Assembly: GCF_003670115.1 (NCBI RefSeq)
Contig: NZ_QQTY01000001.1
Location: forward strand, 496,001-560,000
DNA length: 64,000 bases
Direction of reading: 5' to 3'
DNA from: Natronorubrum halophilum
GTDB taxonomy: Archaea > Halobacteriota > Halobacteria > Halobacteriales > Natrialbaceae
Both the position numbers and the translations under genes were made by a program. A model generated the notes under the pieces. It ran no database searches and was not told the origin of the DNA. It was given only the letters and a program-made list of their open reading frames with translations. Position 1 is the first letter of the stretch. Every line of letters begins with the position of its first letter. Positions 10,591 to 55,687 of this stretch are shown here, piece by piece.

Positions 10591-12951
10591 ATGCCGCCCG
10601 AGTTGTCGGTGGTCCTCGCCGCCGTCGCGTTGCCCTTTGTCGCTGCTGTGAGCACGCCAGTCCTCTTTCGCGTCCTCGGTGAGCGGACCGGCTACGCCGG
10701 CGTAGCGGTCGCGCTGACGAGCTTCCTCCTCCTCGCGACCCAACTCGGGAGCGAGGGGACCGTCGGACTCGCCTGGATTCCCTCGCTAAACATCTCCCTG
10801 CGCTTCGCTATCGACGGCTGGGGGCTGCTGTTTGCGCTGCTCGCCTGCGGGATCGGGACGCTCATTTTCCTCTACTCGCCGGCGTACATGCACGGCGAGT
10901 CGAGCCTCCCCAGGTTCTACGCCGCACTGCTCGCCTTTATGGGGTCGATCGTCGGCGTCGCGCTGGCTGCCGACCTGATCGCGATCTTCCTCTTCTGGGA
11001 ACTCACCAGCCTCTGTTCGTTCGTCCTGATCGGCCACTACACGGCCGACGACTCCTCGCAGTACGCCGCTCGAATGGCGATGTTCGTCACCGTCGGCGGC
11101 GGTCTCTTCTTGCTCGTCGGCTTCCTGTTGCTGGCGCTGGTCGCGGGCGACGTCCTCGGCTCCGAATTCGCGTTCAACCTCGCCGCGATGCTCGAGAACC
11201 CGAACGAGATAGCCGACGCGCTCCGGGAGGAAGGGCTGTTTCTACCGGTGTTGGGCTTGATCGCGATCGGCGCGGGGGCCAAGTCCGCACAGGTGCCGCT
11301 GCACTTCTGGTTGCCCAACGCGATGGCGGCTCCGACGCCCGTTTCGGCGTTTCTCCACTCCGCGACGATGGTCAAAGTCGGCGTCTACTTCGTCGGTCGG
11401 ATTCGGCCTATGCTCGTCGGGCCGGAGTGGCTGTTCCTCTTCGCGACGCTGGGGCTGACCACGATGACGATCTGTGCGATCCTGGCGGTCGGCTCGACCG
11501 ACATCAAGGAGCTGCTGGCTTACTCGACGGCGAGCCACCTGGGGCTGATGATCGCCGGCTTCGGCTTCACCTCGATCTACGGCGCGGAGGCCGGCGTCTT
11601 CCACCTGTTCAATCACGCGCTGTTCAAGGCTGCGCTCTTCCTCGTCGCCGGGATCGTCGCCCATCAGGCCGGCACGCGGCGGCTCGAGAACCTCAGCGGA
11701 CTCCGTCACGACCTCCCGATCACGACCGCGATCACCGCTATCGTCGCGCTCAGTATGGCCGGTATTCCGCCGTTCAGCGGGTTCTACTCGAAGGAACTGC
11801 TCTTCGAGGCGGCCGTCGAGGCGAGACACGTCCACGATATCGGCGTCCTGGGCTGGCTCTACCCGGCCGTCGCCGTCTTCGGGAGCATCTTCACCGTCCT
11901 CTACTCGCTTCGATTCCTCTCGCTGTTCTTCGGCGAGCGACCCGAGGAACTCGGTCACGTCGACCGGCCGTCCGTCATGCTTCTCGTATCGCCCGCCGTG
12001 CTGGCCGCGCTCACGGCCCTCGTCAGCGTCGATCCCGAGATCGCGGTCCACGCGATCGTCCAGAGCGGCGTCGACGCGACCGCCGTCGATCCCCACGAGA
12101 TGCACGTCGGGATTCCGACCGCCTACTCCCCGCCGGTCGGGATGAGCGCGGTGACGATCGGGCTCGGCTTCCTCGCGTACCCGTTCTACGGGCGCATTCA
12201 CGGCGGCGTTCGGGCGATCCCGGAACTGATCCCGCCGATCGGTGCGAACTGGTGGTACGATACCATCGTCGATGGCCTCACGGACGGCGGCGCGTGGCTC
12301 GCCGCCCGGATCCACAACGGGCTGCTCAGAACGTACGCGACGTGGACGCTCGCGTCGACCTGCGCCCTCACGCTCGCGGGCTTCGCCGCGACGGCCACCA
12401 TCGTTCCGACGCATCTCATCGAATTCGACGCCCCGATTGCGATCGCACTCGTCATGCTCGTCGCGGTGATGGCCGCCGTCGCCGTCGTCCGCTCGACCTC
12501 GCACATCGCCGGCATCCTCACGCTCTCGATCCTGGGATTCATGATCGCCATCTTCTACATCCTCGCGAGCGCGCCCGACCTCGCGTTGACCCAGCTGGTC
12601 GTCGAAACGCTCATCCTCGTCATCTTCTTGCTCGTGATCGAGGAGATTCCCGAGTACTACGAGGTCGGGCTCGGCCGGGTCGCTCGCGACGCCGTCCTCT
12701 CAGTCGCCGTCGGCGCAACCGCCTTCGTCACCGTCCTCGTCACGACCGACGCGCGTCCGGCGGGAAGTACGTCCATCGCCCGCTACTACGCCGAACAGGC
12801 GGTTCCCGAAGGCGGCGGGACGAACATCGTCAACGTGATTCTCGTCGACTTCCGCGGCTTCGACACCCTCGGCGAACTCGCCGTGGTCGCACTCGCCGCG
12901 ATTTCGATCCTGACGCTCATCGTGATGCGCAACGGAGGGGACGACGAATGA
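10591..12951 (+). CDS. mrpA: Mrp Na+/H+ antiporter subunit A
   Basis: 786 residues, the full length expected for MrpA. The N-terminal two thirds is a NuoL-like proton-channel domain with about 14 helices: LIAIFLFWELTSLCSFVLIG, HFWLPNAMAAPTPVSAFLHS with the discontinuous-helix Pro/His region, and the conserved Lys/His in FNHALFKAALFLVAG. The C-terminal part (from about 600) has the MbhD/MbhE-like helices (ASAPDLALTQLVVETLILVI, then VNVILVDFRGFDTLGE). MrpA is the largest subunit of the secondary antiporter that expels Na+ using the proton gradient. It is the first gene of a seven-gene operon. Confidence 0.95.
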   Translation: MPPELSVVLAAVALPFVAAVSTPVLFRVLGERTGYAGVAVALTSFLLLATQLGSEGTVGLAWIPSLNISLRFAIDGWGLLFALLACGIGTLIFLYSPAYMHGESSLPRFYAALLAFMGSIVGVALAADLIAIFLFWELTSLCSFVLIGHYTADDSSQYAARMAMFVTVGGGLFLLVGFLLLALVAGDVLGSEFAFNLAAMLENPNEIADALREEGLFLPVLGLIAIGAGAKSAQVPLHFWLPNAMAAPTPVSAFLHSATMVKVGVYFVGRIRPMLVGPEWLFLFATLGLTTMTICAILAVGSTDIKELLAYSTASHLGLMIAGFGFTSIYGAEAGVFHLFNHALFKAALFLVAGIVAHQAGTRRLENLSGLRHDLPITTAITAIVALSMAGIPPFSGFYSKELLFEAAVEARHVHDIGVLGWLYPAVAVFGSIFTVLYSLRFLSLFFGERPEELGHVDRPSVMLLVSPAVLAALTALVSVDPEIAVHAIVQSGVDATAVDPHEMHVGIPTAYSPPVGMSAVTIGLGFLAYPFYGRIHGGVRAIPELIPPIGANWWYDTIVDGLTDGGAWLAARIHNGLLRTYATWTLASTCALTLAGFAATATIVPTHLIEFDAPIAIALVMLVAVMAAVAVVRSTSHIAGILTLSILGFMIAIFYILASAPDLALTQLVVETLILVIFLLVIEEIPEYYEVGLGRVARDAVLSVAVGATAFVTVLVTTDARPAGSTSIARYYAEQAVPEGGGTNIVNVILVDFRGFDTLGELAVVALAAISILTLIVMRNGGDDE

Positions 12952-12983
12952 CGCGACTCGCCACTCGAGGTGAGATGCGATGA
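12948..12983 (+). CDS. 11-codon relay mini-ORF between mrpA and mrpB
   Basis: The ATG at 12948 overlaps the mrpA stop as ATGA, and the TGA at 12981-12983 overlaps the mrpB ATG at 12980. The peptide would be MTRLATRGEMR. It is too short to carry a function; its position suggests that it passes terminating ribosomes from mrpA to mrpB. Expression is not shown. Confidence 0.4.
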   Translation: MTRLATRGEMR

Positions 12984-13444
12984 CGACCGTCATCATGCGC
13001 ACGACCGCTCGAGCGATCGTTCCGATCATCTTCGTGGTCGCCGCCTCGCTGTTCGTCGAGGGTCACAATCTTCCCGGCGGCGGCTTCATCGCCGGCGTCC
13101 TCACGACGACCGCGTTCGCGATCATCTACCTCGCCTTCGGACTGGACTTTCTCGAGCGCGGGGTGCTGGGGCGCGACGTCGAACCCGGGAAGGAGTCCTC
13201 GCGGGATCGCCTCGTCGTGGCCTACCGGCGACTGTTCGAGTACGGCCTGGCGATCGCCGTCCTCAGCGGGCTGGTACCGCTGCTGTTCGGCCGCCCCTTC
13301 CTCACGCAGACGTTCCTCGTGTTCGAGGGCGTGCCGATCTATCACCACGTCGAGATCGCGAGCGCGCTCGCGTTCGACTTCGGCGTCTTCTGCGTCGTCG
13401 TCGGCGGGCTTCTGACGATCCTCTCGGTGGTGGGTGCGGAATGA
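12980..13444 (+). CDS. mrpB: Mrp Na+/H+ antiporter subunit B
   Basis: 154 residues with four predicted helices. The signature EGHNLPGGGFIAGVLTTTAF is the conserved MnhB core, preceded by TARAIVPIIFVVAASLFV. The C-terminus VEIASALAFDFGVFCVVVGG matches the last helix of the family. The start overlaps the stop of an 11-codon mini-ORF that follows mrpA, and the stop overlaps the mrpC ATG as ATGA. It is an integral membrane subunit of the Mrp complex with no catalytic cofactor. Confidence 0.93.
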   Translation: MTTVIMRTTARAIVPIIFVVAASLFVEGHNLPGGGFIAGVLTTTAFAIIYLAFGLDFLERGVLGRDVEPGKESSRDRLVVAYRRLFEYGLAIAVLSGLVPLLFGRPFLTQTFLVFEGVPIYHHVEIASALAFDFGVFCVVVGGLLTILSVVGAE

Positions 13445-13794
13445 CGGCGTTCCTCCTCGCGCTCGTCGTCGGCGCGCTGTTCGCGCTCGGGACGTTCTTG
13501 CTCCTCAGACGGGACCTGATCCGCGTCGTCTGGGGGCTTGCCATCATCAGTCAGGCGGCGAACGTCTACCTGCTGGCGATGGGGGGAGTTGCGGCGGGCA
13601 CCGCCGACACGGTCCCCGTACTGGCAGGTCACGGCGAACACGTACCGGAGACGGCCGATCCGCTGGTGCAGGCGCTCGTACTGACCGCGATCGTCATCGG
13701 CTTCGGCATGACCGCGTTCGCACTGGTGCTGTCGTATCGGGTCTACGAGGAACACGACACGCTCGACGTCTCGGAACTGGGTGATCGCGAATGA
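13441..13794 (+). CDS. mrpC: Mrp Na+/H+ antiporter subunit C (NuoK-like)
   Basis: 117 residues, three helices, homologous to NuoK. Recognisable elements are VVWGLAIISQAANVYLLAMG and the last helix DPLVQALVLTAIVIGFGMTA, the classic MnhC signature. The start is the ATG at 13441 inside the mrpB stop (ATGA). The hydrophilic loop with HGEHVPETADP is normal for the family. A 25-codon mini-ORF spans the gap to mrpD. Confidence 0.93.
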   Translation: MTAFLLALVVGALFALGTFLLLRRDLIRVVWGLAIISQAANVYLLAMGGVAAGTADTVPVLAGHGEHVPETADPLVQALVLTAIVIGFGMTAFALVLSYRVYEEHDTLDVSELGDRE

Positions 13795-13868
13795 CGACGA
13801 CAGAGCCGACGGAGACGATGAACACGAGAGCAACCAGTACATCGACAGGAGCGGGTGAGCGACGATGA
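13791..13868 (+). CDS. 25-codon relay mini-ORF between mrpC and mrpD
   Basis: It begins at the ATGA formed with the mrpC stop (13791) and ends in the ATGA formed with the mrpD start (13865). The peptide MTTTEPTETMNTRATSTSTG plus five residues is low in complexity and has no domain. It probably serves translational coupling rather than coding for a functional protein. Expression is unproven. Confidence 0.4.
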   Translation: MTTTEPTETMNTRATSTSTGAGERR

Positions 13869-15541
13869 CGACACCGTTGGCGGCGATGCCGATCGGCACG
13901 GGATCCCAACTCGTGATCGCGCCGATGCTCGTCGTCCTCGTCGCGGCCGTCGGGAGTTTACTGTTCAGCCGATGGCCCCGTGCGCGCATGGCCGTGAGCC
14001 TCGCGGGCGGCGCCGGCTACGCGATCGCCGTCGCGGCGATCGACTGGTACGTCGTCCTCGCGCCGGGCGCGCCGGGAATCGCGACCTATCAGGTCGGCGA
14101 CTGGCCGGCCCCGGCCGGCATCACGCTCGTCGCCGACGGCCTGTCGGCGTTCATGCTGACCATGGTCGCGATCCTCGGAATCGCGTCGCTGGTCTTTTCG
14201 ACGCGCGTGCTGCCCGAGATCGATCCGCGTAGCTATTACTTTCCGCTGTTTCACTTTCTGGCGCTCGGCGTCACCGGTGCCTTCCTCACCGCCGACCTGT
14301 TCAACCTGTTCGTCTGGTTCGAGGTGATGTTGATGGCCAGTTACGTCTTCGTCGCCTACTACGGCGGCCCCCAGCACACCCGCGCCGCCTTCTGGTACGT
14401 CGCGCTCAACCTGCTCGCGAGCGCGGTCTTCCTGCTCGGGGTCGGCGGCATCTACGCGACGACGGGGACGCTCAACATGGCCGACCTCGCCCGTCGACTC
14501 GCCGAACCGGCGGCGTACGGGATCGATCTCGGCCCGGTCGTCGGCCTCCTCGCCATGCTCCTGTCGGTGTTCGCGATCAAAGCCGGACTCGTCCCCTTCC
14601 AGTTCTGGATCCCGACGGCCTACCGGGCCGCACCGCCGCAGATCACGGCCCTGCTGGCCGGCGCGACCAAAAAGGTCGGCATCTACGCGATCATCCGCCT
14701 CTCCTTTACCGTCTTCGCCGGGGCGCAGATCAGCGTCGACCTCGAGGCACCGATCGTCGGAGCCGTCGTTTCCGGCCCCTCTCCCCTCGCGTTCGTCGGG
14801 GCCGTCCTGTTCGCCATGGCCACCGCCAGCATCCTCGTCGGCGGGATCGGTGCCGTCGGCCGGGACTCAATCGAGGGCGTGCTCGCCTACTCGAGCATCG
14901 GTCAGGTCGGCTTCATCGCGATTCCGGTCGCCATCGCGGCGACGGCCTCGAGCGCGGAGTTACGCCACTTCGCCATCGTCGCGGCGCTGGTCTACGCGCT
15001 CAATCACACGTTGGCGAAGGGATTGCTCTTTCTCGCGGTCGGCGCGATCAGATCGGCGACCGGAACGAGCCGTCTGGCCGACCTCGGCGGGCTGGCGAGG
15101 CGGTCGCCGCCGCTCGCCGTCGCCTTCTTCGTCGGCTCGCTCGCGCTCGTCGGCATTCCGCCGCTGTCGGGCTTTTTCGGCAAATTCCTCGTCTTCTACA
15201 CCGCGGCTCGAGCCGAGTTGGCACCGGTCCTCGGCCTCCTGCTCGTCGGATCGCTGTTGACCATCGCCTACGCGACGCGGACGTGGAATCGGAGCTTCTG
15301 GGGGGCCCGCACCTCCGCGGTCGAAGAGGCAACCGTCGATCCCGTACAGGTCGGCGTGTTGCTCGCGCTCGCGACGGTCATCGTCGCGGTCGGCGTCGGC
15401 TTCGAACTGGTCTACCAGTTCGCGGAGGCCGCCGCGGCGGCCGCGCTGGATACCGACGGGTACGTCGACGCCGTCGATCCGCTCGAGCCGAGCGAGTTGG
15501 AGGCGGCCGGCGAGGACGCCGGCGGAGGTGAGCACGCGTGA
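13865..15541 (+). CDS. mrpD: Mrp Na+/H+ antiporter subunit D (NuoN/M-like)
   Basis: 558 residues with about 14 transmembrane helices. It shows the proton-translocating-module hallmarks: NLFVWFEVMLMASYVFVAYY (conserved Glu of TM5), FQFWIPTAYRAAPPQITALL (discontinuous helix region), the Lys in AGATKKVGIYAIIRL, and YALNHTLAKGLLFLAVGAI (conserved His/Lys). The Ala/Glu-rich C-terminal tail is cytoplasmic. The start is set by the mini-ORF stop overlap. It is paralogous to MrpA and forms the second proton path. The stop overlaps the mrpE GTG. Confidence 0.94.
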   Translation: MTTPLAAMPIGTGSQLVIAPMLVVLVAAVGSLLFSRWPRARMAVSLAGGAGYAIAVAAIDWYVVLAPGAPGIATYQVGDWPAPAGITLVADGLSAFMLTMVAILGIASLVFSTRVLPEIDPRSYYFPLFHFLALGVTGAFLTADLFNLFVWFEVMLMASYVFVAYYGGPQHTRAAFWYVALNLLASAVFLLGVGGIYATTGTLNMADLARRLAEPAAYGIDLGPVVGLLAMLLSVFAIKAGLVPFQFWIPTAYRAAPPQITALLAGATKKVGIYAIIRLSFTVFAGAQISVDLEAPIVGAVVSGPSPLAFVGAVLFAMATASILVGGIGAVGRDSIEGVLAYSSIGQVGFIAIPVAIAATASSAELRHFAIVAALVYALNHTLAKGLLFLAVGAIRSATGTSRLADLGGLARRSPPLAVAFFVGSLALVGIPPLSGFFGKFLVFYTAARAELAPVLGLLLVGSLLTIAYATRTWNRSFWGARTSAVEEATVDPVQVGVLLALATVIVAVGVGFELVYQFAEAAAAAALDTDGYVDAVDPLEPSELEAAGEDAGGGEHA

Positions 15542-16143
15542 ACGTGCGGACCTGGCCCGTCGCCGGCGTCGTCTTCGCCGTGCTGTGGGTCTTCGTTCGC
15601 GGCGTCCATCTGACGCCGTCGGCCGTGCTCGGCCAGTTCCTCCTCGGCCTCGCGGTCGGCCTGCCGACCGCGTACCTCTTCCGGCGGCTGTACGGCAAGC
15701 GGATCGATCTCGGCCGCGGCGTGCTCGCGCTTCCCTACGCGGGCCGGTACCTCGGTGCGTTCGTCTGGGAACTCGTCCGCGCGAACCTGGACGTGGCCTA
15801 CCGGGTGCTCTCGCCGGGAATGCCGATCGAACCCGAAGTAATCCTGGTACCGCTGCGCGTCGAGACCGACGTCGCGATCACCCTCCTCGCCAACAGCGTC
15901 ACGATCACCCCCGGGACGGTCACCCTGGACTACGACGAGGGGACGAACGCGCTCTACGTCCACGCGGTCGACGGCCGCGATCCGGAAGCGATCGCCGCCC
16001 CCATTCGACGCTGGGAGGACGCCGCGCTCGAGATGTTCGACGAGCGGGCGTCGCCGGACGATCCGCCGCGAGAGATCGTCGTCTCCGGCGGCGAACGGAA
16101 TCAACGCTACGGCGGTGACCCGCTGGGTGATGGCGATGAGTGA
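15538..16143 (+). CDS. mrpE: Mrp Na+/H+ antiporter subunit E
   Basis: 201 residues starting with GTG at 15538, overlapping the mrpD TGA as GTGA. Helices at about 8-22 and 25-45 (TPSAVLGQFLLGLAVGLPTA) are followed by the conserved MnhE stretch FVWELVRANLDVAYRVLSP. The soluble domain has RVETDVAITLLANSVTITPG and DYDEGTNALYVHAVD. The C-terminus is longer and more acidic than in bacterial MrpE (about 160 residues). The stop overlaps the mrpF start by 8 bases. Confidence 0.93.
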   Translation: MNVRTWPVAGVVFAVLWVFVRGVHLTPSAVLGQFLLGLAVGLPTAYLFRRLYGKRIDLGRGVLALPYAGRYLGAFVWELVRANLDVAYRVLSPGMPIEPEVILVPLRVETDVAITLLANSVTITPGTVTLDYDEGTNALYVHAVDGRDPEAIAAPIRRWEDAALEMFDERASPDDPPREIVVSGGERNQRYGGDPLGDGDE

Positions 16144-16426
16144 ACTGGTCGGTCCGGCGGCCCTCGAACTGACGGTTCGTGCGGCGCTGATCCTCGTCAG
16201 CCTGCTGTGTGTCCTCTGTAGCTACCGCGTAATCGCCGGGCCGACGAATCCGGACCGCGTGGTCGCACTGGACGCCATCGCCACGAACGTCGTCGCCATC
16301 GCCGTCCTCTTCGCCATCCAGACCGACCGCGGGCTGTTTATCACGGTGAGCCTCGTGCTCGCGATTATCGGCTTCATCGCGACGGTCGCGGTCGCAAAGT
16401 TCGTCATCGAGGGGGAGGTGATCTAG
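16136..16426 (+). CDS. mrpF: Mrp Na+/H+ antiporter subunit F
   Basis: 96 residues from the ATG at 16136 (MSELVGPAALEL), three helices. The family signature is RVIAGPTNPDRVVALDAIAT, followed by FITVSLVLAIIGFIATVAVA. An alternative ATG at 16115 lies 21 bases upstream inside mrpE. Translation is likely coupled to mrpE (8-base overlap), and the TAG stop shares one base with the mrpG GTG. Confidence 0.93.
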   Translation: MSELVGPAALELTVRAALILVSLLCVLCSYRVIAGPTNPDRVVALDAIATNVVAIAVLFAIQTDRGLFITVSLVLAIIGFIATVAVAKFVIEGEVI

Positions 16427-16803
16427 TGATCCGAACCGCCGTCATTATCGCGCTGATCGTCGTCGGCTGTTTCTTCCTGACGGTCGGCACCGTCGGCTTG
16501 CTGCGCCTGCCGAACGTCTACAATCGGATGCACGCGACGAGCAAGCCCACGACGCTCGGTACCGCCGCGATATTCCTCGCGGGGTTCGTCTACTTCGGGC
16601 CGGGCAACGAGGGCCTCACCTCGCTGATCGGAATCGTCTTCCTGTTTCTGACGGTTCCGACGGGTGCCCACATGATCGCCCGATCGGCCGAACGAATCGG
16701 CGTTCCGTTCCTCGGGAGCGTGACCTGGCCGGACGCGTCGGTGTTGGCGAACGACCAGCGAGACCGAGACGAACGCCGATCCGCGGACGACAGCGACGAA
16801 TAG
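16426..16803 (+). CDS. mrpG: Mrp Na+/H+ antiporter subunit G
   Basis: 125 residues, GTG start overlapping the mrpF stop by one base. Three helices and the MnhG signature are present: GLLRLPNVYNRMHATSKPTT, with a conserved His region, and LTVPTGAHMIARSAERIG near the C-terminus. The tail is acidic and Asp/Arg-rich, typical of halophiles. It is the last gene of the mrp operon; the next gene (SHOCT protein) converges on it with a 20-base gap. Confidence 0.93.
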   Translation: MIRTAVIIALIVVGCFFLTVGTVGLLRLPNVYNRMHATSKPTTLGTAAIFLAGFVYFGPGNEGLTSLIGIVFLFLTVPTGAHMIARSAERIGVPFLGSVTWPDASVLANDQRDRDERRSADDSDE

Positions 16804-51368: not shown

Positions 51369-52010
51369 TTACTCGGCTTCGGGAATCGCGCCGTCCTCGA
51401 CGTAAGGTAGCTCACGGGCCTTCTTCCGGACTTCACCGGCGTTGGACTTCATCAACGCCGTCGTGTCCCAGACGCCCTCGACGAGCGCCTTGCGCTGGGC
51501 GTCGTCGACGGTGACGTCGATCGTCTCGCCTCCGTACGTGACCGTCTCGGCCTCGACGTCGATCTCGAGTTCGCCGTCGGGGTTCTCGTCGACCCAGTCC
51601 TGGAGGTTCTGGATCGTTTCGCTGTCGGCGGTGACGGTCGGGATGCCGAGCGCCAGGCAGTTGCCCGCGAAGATCTCGGCGAAGCTCTCGCCGATTACCG
51701 CATCGATCCCCCACCGCATCAGCGCCTGGGGCGCGTGCTCTCTCGAGGAGCCACAGCCGAAGTTACCGTTGACGACCATGACCGACGAATCCTGGAACCG
51801 GTCCTCGTTGAACGGATGGTCCTTGAGGTCGTCGTTCTCGTCGAACCGAAGGTCGAAGAAGGCGAACTCGCCCAGTCCGTCGAAGGTGACGACCTTCATG
51901 AACCGCGCCGGGATGATCTGGTCGGTGTCGATGTCGTTGCCCCGGATCGGGACGCCGGAGCCGGAGACGAAGGTCACCTCCGGAATGTCGACCGCACCGT
52001 CTCCGCTCAT
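51369..52010 (-). CDS. leuD: 3-isopropylmalate dehydratase small subunit
   Basis: 213 residues from [20 protein letters not shown] (ATG 52010). The aconitase swivel-domain motifs are IRGNDIDTDQIIPARFMKVV and FGCGSSREHAPQALMRWGID. It isomerises 2-isopropylmalate to 3-isopropylmalate together with LeuC. The start is fixed by the ATGA overlap with the end of a 35-codon mini-ORF that spans the leuC-leuD gap. Longer than bacterial LeuD only by the N-terminal acidic segment. Confidence 0.94.
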   Translation of the reverse strand: MSGDGAVDIPEVTFVSGSGVPIRGNDIDTDQIIPARFMKVVTFDGLGEFAFFDLRFDENDDLKDHPFNEDRFQDSSVMVVNGNFGCGSSREHAPQALMRWGIDAVIGESFAEIFAGNCLALGIPTVTADSETIQNLQDWVDENPDGELEIDVEAETVTYGGETIDVTVDDAQRKALVEGVWDTTALMKSNAGEVRKKARELPYVEDGAIPEAE

Positions 52011-52114
52011 GCTACCACCTCCGGCGCGTCGCGCATCCGCGGTGGCGTTCGCTCCGATCGGTCGCGGACTCCGTCCACTCGCGTGTTCGAGATGCGTGGC
52101 GTCTCGCTTCTCAT
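52007..52114 (-). CDS. 35-codon relay mini-ORF between leuC and leuD
   Basis: Its ATG (52114-52112) overlaps the leuC TGA as ATGA, and its TGA (52009-52007) overlaps the leuD ATG as ATGA. The peptide is Arg-rich ([20 protein letters not shown] plus 15 residues) and has no domain. It is the longest of the coupling ORFs in the window. Its exact ends make chance unlikely; expression is unproven. Confidence 0.45.
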
Positions 52115-54931: not shown

Positions 54932-55610
54932 CGGTTGTTGAGTGGGTTGGTGATTGCGTTCGCTGTTGGTTCGCCGTCTCGGCGGATAATACTTCGTCGG
55001 CGGTGGACGCCGAGTCGGACGCGCCCGTGCTATCGGTCCCGCGAGCGAGCGCCGTCGTCCCGGTCCGGGAGATCTCTCGAATCCCGAACTGGCTGAAGGT
55101 CTCGATCGCGGCCTCGATCTTCTGGCGGGCGCCCGTTACCTCGATCGTCGCCGTTTCCGGGCACGAGTCGACGGTCTTCCCGCCGTACATCTCCGCGACC
55201 GCAGCGACCCGATCGGGGCGGTCGGCGTCGACCTTCACGAGCGCCAGTTCGCGACGCATCGCGTCGGGCTCGAGTTCCCGAACCGAGATGACGGGCACCA
55301 GCTTTCGAAGTTGCTTTTTGATCTGGTCGATGCCGGGATCGGGTTCCTCGACGACGACCGTGATCCGCGCGTGGGCCTCGTTCTTCGTCGGTCCGACGGT
55401 CAGACTTTCGATGTTGAACTGCCGCCTCGAGAACAGCCCCGAGACGTCCGACAGGACGCCGGGTTCGTGCGTGACCAACGCCGAGATGACGGTCCGTCGG
55501 GGCGTGTGCGTCGCCTCGACCTCCGGATCGATGCGAATCCCCTGTTCGTTGCGCCGTCCCGACGGGGTCGGTCGCTCTTCGGGCTTCGGTCCGTCGAGTC
55601 CGCGTTTCAC
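54924..55610 (-). CDS. ilvN: Acetolactate synthase small (regulatory) subunit
   Basis: 228 residues from the GTG at 55610, which overlaps the stop of the upstream mini-ORF as GTGA; a GTG 9 bases upstream is the alternative. The first ACT domain is [20 protein letters not shown] followed by [20 protein letters not shown]; the second domain begins [20 protein letters not shown]. Known role: feedback control of IlvB by valine. The C-terminal 40 residues are a low-complexity acidic Thr/Ser tail, a halophilic extension. Confidence 0.93.
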
Positions 55611-55687
55611 GCGAACCACCCCGTGGTTCGCTGACCGGAGTGGCGCGAAGACGCGAAGTCGAAAGCGCTCGCTCGTTCGGAATTCAT
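55607..55687 (-). CDS. 26-codon relay mini-ORF between ilvB and ilvN
   Basis: The ATG at 55687 overlaps the ilvB stop (ATGA), and the TGA at 55609-55607 overlaps the GTG of ilvN at 55610 (GTGA). The peptide MNSERASAFDFASSRHSGQR plus six residues has no domain. Its end selects GTG 55610 as the ilvN start. Expression is unproven. Confidence 0.45.
   Translation of the reverse strand: MNSERASAFDFASSRHSGQRTTGWFA

Follow-up and report, generated by a model that had tools for sequence, protein, structure and literature searches.

Short open reading frames as probable translational relays across gaps in the mrp operon of Natronorubrum halophilum

The stretch of DNA analysed here (the window; 64,000 nucleotides (nt) of Natronorubrum halophilum, contig NZ_QQTY01000001.1, positions 496,001 to 560,000) carries an mrp operon in which mrpA and mrpB are separated by a gap of 28 nt and mrpC and mrpD by a gap of 70 nt. 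According to the sequence, each gap is exactly filled by one short open reading frame (mini-ORF). The genes of the operon with their Pfam matches, the two mini-ORFs and the Shine-Dalgarno (SD) motifs around them are listed below in order of position; the 3' end of the 16S RNA of the same genome was read as GGATCACCTCC.

10591..12951, forward strand: mrpA, with MbhD/MbhE C-terminal domains (PF00361, PF00662, PF13244, PF20501)
12934..12938, forward strand: SD-like GGAGG within mrpA, 9 nt before mini-ORF 1 (from sequence)
12948..12983, forward strand: mini-ORF 1, 11 codons, putative relay from mrpA to mrpB, reading MTRLATRGEMR and stop (from sequence)
12967..12973, forward strand: SD motif GAGGTGA within mini-ORF 1, 6 nt before mrpB (from sequence)
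12980..13444, forward strand: mrpB (PF04039)
13441..13794, forward strand: mrpC (PF00420)
13780..13786, forward strand: SD motif GGTGATC within mrpC, 4 nt before mini-ORF 2 (from sequence)
13791..13868, forward strand: mini-ORF 2, 25 codons, putative relay from mrpC to mrpD, reading MTTTEPTETMNTRATSTSTGAGERR and stop (from sequence)
13854..13858, forward strand: SD-like GGTGA within mini-ORF 2, 6 nt before mrpD (from sequence; the script picked AGGAG at 13 nt)
13865..15541, forward strand: mrpD (PF00361)
15538..16143, forward strand: mrpE, overlapping mrpD by -4 (PF01899)
16136..16426, forward strand: mrpF, overlapping mrpE by -8 (PF04066)
16426..16803, forward strand: mrpG, overlapping mrpF by -1 (PF03334)

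Both mini-ORFs share ATGA with the genes on either side: the start codon overlaps the upstream stop (mrpA, 12949-12951; mrpC, 13792-13794), and the stop codon overlaps the following start (ATG of mrpB at 12980, of mrpD at 13865). Both ends of both mini-ORFs are thus -4 overlaps, the stop-start arrangement of termination-reinitiation, and the relay junctions, whose upstream frame also contains an SD motif, have the sequence features of that process. The remaining junctions of the operon overlap directly, namely B-C at -4, D-E at -4, E-F at -8 (ATGAGTGA) and F-G at -1 (TAGTG). A preliminary description of the window had put forward ORFs of 11 and 25 codons that span the A-B and C-D gaps with ATGA links at both ends, as well as direct overlaps at the other mrp junctions, and the sequence bore out both points; the SD-like motifs before the mini-ORFs and before the genes that follow them are an addition to that description. 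Taken alone, two in-frame gaps within a single operon are weak evidence and could be due to chance, as each gap has a probability of one third of lying in the right phase and must then be open.

We based the assessment of this arrangement on relatives. A search for MrpB matched 87 of 125 genomes of the window's family at E 1e-3 and 162 of 391 genomes at class level at E 1e-20, and 26 loci were added from named contigs. The resulting mrp sample comprised 156 loci plus the window, 133 of them unique, and was made up of the 30 best family matches, the 26 named loci and 100 further stretches chosen among the matches listed (40 from the same family and 60 from other families). The genome of Natronorubrum thiooxidans (G108) falls in the window's genus, and the loci L008 and L031 are the same. 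Gene starts were set by homology. Two loci were left out of the C-D counts, L096 owing to a long C-D overlap and L154, in which about 1 kb separates mrpC from mrpD. One of the 133 unique loci gave no usable A-B junction. L053 could be classified at none of the A-B, B-C and C-D junctions; in this Natrinema hispanicum record (L053 / L091) mrpB is apparently frameshifted and its match is broken into pieces. An annotated plasmid copy from Natrinema thermotolerans (L367) has no mrpA listed and a direct C-D overlap and is thus uninformative on how relays are annotated. The E-F "gaps" of an initial classification were rejected, as they are long overlaps whose start lies further upstream.

For the comparison of junctions we used a strict relay model, in which the ribosome restarts only at an ATG or GTG that overlaps the stop by -4 or -1. 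At A-B, 112 of 132 usable junctions overlap directly (109 at -4), 19 are gapped and one is unclassifiable; 16 junctions are gapped at B-C and 20 at C-D. The strict model reached the downstream gene in all of the gapped cases, i.e. 19/19 at A-B, 16/16 at B-C and 20/20 at C-D (55/55). Of the C-D links, 18 run via one ORF, one via two tandem mini-ORFs (L013) and one via four (L059). In L013, the gap of 123 nt has a phase that would break a single relay, and the two tandem mini-ORFs restore the frame; in L059, the four tandem mini-ORFs cross 211 nt and arrive in the correct frame. Within one junction, the gap lengths bridged by single relays differed by multiples of three in 655 of 655 pairwise comparisons, which are non-independent. 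On the tree of the 133 loci, at least 11 (A-B), 6 (B-C) and 9 (C-D) switches between relay and direct overlap are required, and at least 16, 10 and 16, respectively, when lengths are counted too. The expectation of the preliminary description that the frame and the ATGA ends are kept in relatives while the peptide is not holds in these 55 gapped junctions and in three other operons. Gaps without an in-frame link, to which it had pointed as contrary evidence, were absent from A-B, B-C and C-D and were seen only at F-G (17/27) and D-E (2/5).

Two side observations concern the same junctions. The peptides of the tandem mini-ORFs of L059 are close to repeats of one another (MTTLRRRRTKPAGDRR and variants), which would fit a duplication of the relay unit. 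In L129, L139-L141, L143, L151 and others, an N-terminal extension of mrpB begins at a direct -4 overlap, which is an alternative way to keep the junction coupled.

In order to assess the strength of the phase rule, we pooled the distinct gap lengths of six junctions, treating them as separate mutational events, which is a reasonable rather than a strict form of independence. In this way, 57 of 61 lengths were found in phase 1 and the other 4 in phase 0 (P ~2e-13 for phase 0 versus 1 only); without C-D, 44 of 47 lengths are in phase 1 (P 1e-10). Phase 2 was excluded from the null, as an open phase-2 gap would be taken for an N-terminally extended downstream gene; extended forms do occur, e.g. 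in 23 of the 112 direct A-B junctions. In a strict single-ORF test over all 95 gapped cases of the six junctions, L096 included, 85 were linked compared to about 60 with shuffled interiors at fixed phase and ends. Since shuffled interiors often stay linked, it is the phase, more than the openness, that carries most of the signal. After insertion of 1 nt into the gap 1/95 strict single relays was left, and after insertion of 2 nt none, which is largely so by construction. Over 2214 codons, the relay frame contains no stop, again by construction, and the other two frames, which may serve as a yardstick, contain 78 and 62. An origin by chance or as an artefact of gene starts has some points in its favour, as the starts are homology-inferred and RTGA starts (R being A or G), each of which contains a TGA that lies in the linking frame, are common in haloarchaea. 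Nevertheless, phase and openness recur across many switches, and control gaps in which RTGA is present at the downstream start but not at the upstream stop were distributed over phases 0, 1 and 2 as 37, 26 and 21, so we regard this explanation as extremely improbable.

A simple gene caller, run on 464 kb of the own genome to find further relays, and family matches gave three more cases, the first two within the window:

52007..52114, reverse strand: relay mini-ORF between leuC and leuD, 35 codons, gap of 100 nt (gene caller and family matches)
55607..55687, reverse strand: relay mini-ORF between ilvB and ilvN, 26 codons, gap of 73 nt (gene caller and family matches)
L169:6527-6577, own genome outside the window: relay mini-ORF between glpB and glpC, 16 codons, gap of 43 nt

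Among 61 ilvBN loci, 11 are gapped and all 11 carry strict relays, the relay being present with varying length in 10 of 60 relatives; of 61 leuCD loci, three are gapped (the window, L271 and L311), again all with strict relays. The glpB-glpC junction is the most length-variable one among relatives (gaps of 34-196 nt): 25 of 30 loci, the own genome included, are gapped, 19 of them have strict relays (18 single, 1 double), and all 25 are linked if spacings of -8 to +6 are permitted. In five of the cases identified, the relay joins subunits of one complex (mrpAB, mrpCD, leuCD, ilvBN and glpBC). Relays without clear complex partners were found in L182 (isochorismatase-like/amidohydrolase) and L200 (two MoeA-like genes).

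At the level of whole genomes (1.26 Mb from three genomes, the two reported junctions excluded), 13 of 21 gaps of 7-130 nt running from RTGA to RTGA were in phase 1 (P 0.007). With RTGA plus an SD motif at both sides, four of four gaps were in phase 1 and open, two of them being the leuCD and ilvBN gaps of the window. Before restriction to RTGA and SD, relays were present in 16 of 246 gaps of 7-130 nt, compared to 8 and 3 after insertion of 1 or 2 nt. These counts suggest that relays are real yet uncommon.

SD-like motifs precede the mini-ORF in 86 of 88 cases and the downstream gene likewise in 86 of 88, compared to 12-13% for nearby codons. We infer that the mini-ORFs are occupied by ribosomes and that coupling is the function under selection. 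A ribosome finishing mrpA (or mrpC) would restart at the overlapping ATG, aided by the SD motif near the 3' end of that gene, and would then read 11 (or 25) codons whose content is unimportant. After terminating at the TGA overlapping the following start codon, it would begin again on mrpB or mrpD via the SD motif inside the mini-ORF. In Haloferax volcanii reporters, coupling was abolished with 22-23 nt between stop and start, as stated in excerpts of PMC10666635, and in overlapping gene pairs of that species internal SD motifs gave no de novo start of the downstream gene, as stated in excerpts of PMC6728339. Internal cistrons of haloarchaea rely on this kind of restarting, and with coupling lost beyond about 20 nt and no de novo start, most larger operon gaps would need a linking frame that is kept open. 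If the H. volcanii rules hold in Natrialbaceae, neither scanning nor a de novo start could serve mrpB (28 nt) or mrpD (70 nt), and a translated relay would be the remaining route. The proposal of the preliminary description that the mini-ORFs keep the ribosome moving across the gaps gains support from the kept frame, the ATGA ends and the variable peptide in relatives. They may also balance subunit stoichiometry, as it had further suggested, though plain delivery of ribosomes suffices to explain the data.

Several observations weigh against this interpretation. Strict relays are present in only 10 of 27 gapped loci at F-G and in 3 of 5 at D-E, and 9 of the 27 F-G gaps are in phase 0. These exceptions indicate that translation of some internal genes begins by a different route; the low rate at F-G also means that the method does not force relays. 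At F-G, the phase-0 gaps that lack a strict relay are those of L099, L112, L115 and L118-L123. The Natrinema C-D inserts contain triplet-like repeats, so that length changes by multiples of three are favoured. Under a permissive definition with up to four ORFs, the +1 nt control at C-D was still linked in 19 of 21 cases; as frame-shift controls under permissive rules often score about the same as the real gaps, it is the strict definition alone that is discriminating for mrp. The genome-wide excess of phase 1 is modest. Finally, an ancestral direct overlap could have left behind the SD motif and the ATGA that the upstream gene carries. Some of this fits an alternative in which each downstream gene is initiated de novo from its own SD motif, with the mini-ORFs present by coincidence: mrpB and mrpD each have a good SD motif about 6 nt upstream, 86 of 88 downstream genes overall are preceded by one, and the mrpF-mrpG gaps without a relay show that gaps are tolerable. 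However, de novo initiation leaves both the phase rule (57/61 lengths) and the SD motifs upstream of the mini-ORFs unexplained, and it runs counter to the H. volcanii result on internal SD motifs cited above. We consider it improbable.

The peptides themselves were assessed in 14 pairs, in which 71 single changes were counted, 43 of them non-synonymous and 28 synonymous compared to 48 and 20 expected. The mini-ORF peptides are thus near-neutral with, at best, a slight bias towards synonymous changes, and the purifying selection that would mark a functional small protein gene was not seen in these pairs. Haloarchaeal proteins are generally acidic, and their genes generally have a raised GC content at third codon positions (GC3). 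The relay peptides show neither feature: they are basic (18% Arg) and also Thr-rich, and the GC content by codon position is 0.57, 0.69 and 0.69, i.e. GC3 is not above that of the second position. Single relays span 10 to 67 codons, and the common peptide endings GDRR, GERR and VIR are the SD motif plus spacer read in frame. Recognisable peptides do occur among close relatives (the 35-codon forms of ilvBN, and leuCD in the window and L271), as would be expected if the mini-ORFs encoded functional small proteins. Nevertheless, the near-neutral substitutions, the wide range of lengths, the basic composition without raised GC3 and the SD- and spacer-encoded C-terminal residues make such proteins very improbable, and a functional peptide was rejected on the grounds of substitution and composition.

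At the RNA level, the mini-ORF regions gave no Rfam match at gathering score, and their folds were not unusually stable compared to shuffles (z -0.45 and +1.04); an RNA element or leader regulator was rejected on these grounds. The folds also bear on the idea that translation of a mini-ORF mainly serves to cover the gap, either against polarity, which is known from archaea, or by opening a hairpin over the next SD motif, with reinitiation being secondary. Such a cover likewise predicts an open frame, and a short stem is predicted over the SD motif of mrpB. It is, however, at odds with folds no stabler than shuffles, with gaps of 25-28 nt, which scarcely need cover, and with the exact RTGA at both ends, which a cover does not require; like de novo initiation, it appears to be an improbable explanation.

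Overall, we estimate the probability that the two mrp mini-ORFs act as translational relays at about 85%. We also think it likely, with somewhat less confidence, that haloarchaea in general hold unannotated relay ORFs, single or in tandem up to four, whose product is irrelevant and which are kept solely to carry reinitiating ribosomes across operon gaps, often between partner subunits; many gaps would then be under a reading-frame law, with insertions surviving only by creating a new ORF. Seemingly non-coding operon gaps would thereby become sequence under frame selection, and gene annotation and small-protein surveys would overlook, or over-read, such peptides. Relays would further represent a natural evolutionary test of the view that ribosomes of haloarchaea do not scan over long distances and do not initiate at internal SD motifs, and tandem relays natural experiments in serial reinitiation.

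The relays resemble several known systems. Termination-reinitiation in H. volcanii, as described in excerpts of two studies (Huber, Soppa and colleagues 2019, 2023; PMC6728339, PMC10666635), is alike in its -4/-1/-8 overlaps, in the SD motif within the upstream frame and in often involving complex subunits; there, two real genes overlap directly, whereas here a non-conserved mini-ORF is inserted as an additional step. No mention of a short ORF, small ORF, uORF, leader, relay or bridge was matched in PMC10666635. In ribosome-delivering upstream ORFs and bicistronic designs, as far as covered by excerpts of a review (PMC12548453), a short ORF likewise solely brings the ribosome to the next start, but these ORFs stand first or are engineered, whereas the relays lie within operons and in turn receive their ribosomes by coupling. 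The minigene mg2 in the leader of the axe-txe operon is a very short ORF with a proximity effect on translation of the next gene; it differs, going by excerpts of PMC8708949, in having two codons, a leader position and a bacterial host and in being without an ATGA link at both ends. Searches of an open-licence collection of papers listed no description of relay mini-ORFs within operons of archaea. The nearest precedent is provided by mycobacterial interspersed repetitive units (MIRUs), reportedly described by Supply in 1997. According to excerpts of the above review (PMC12548453), these repeats insert at start codons with -4 coupling, and the short ORF -4-coupled at the gene start is thought to spare expression of that gene. 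MIRUs are, however, apparently mobile repeats, whereas the haloarchaeal inserts share only short matches across junctions (15-19 nt in the 12 that were listed of 14), and no second copy of the inserts was present in 464 kb of the own genome. A MIRU-like origin from a mobile element was rejected for want of a common insert sequence in these comparisons. With no repeat found in the 464 kb, the relays fall outside the MIRUs, though the working principle may be shared.

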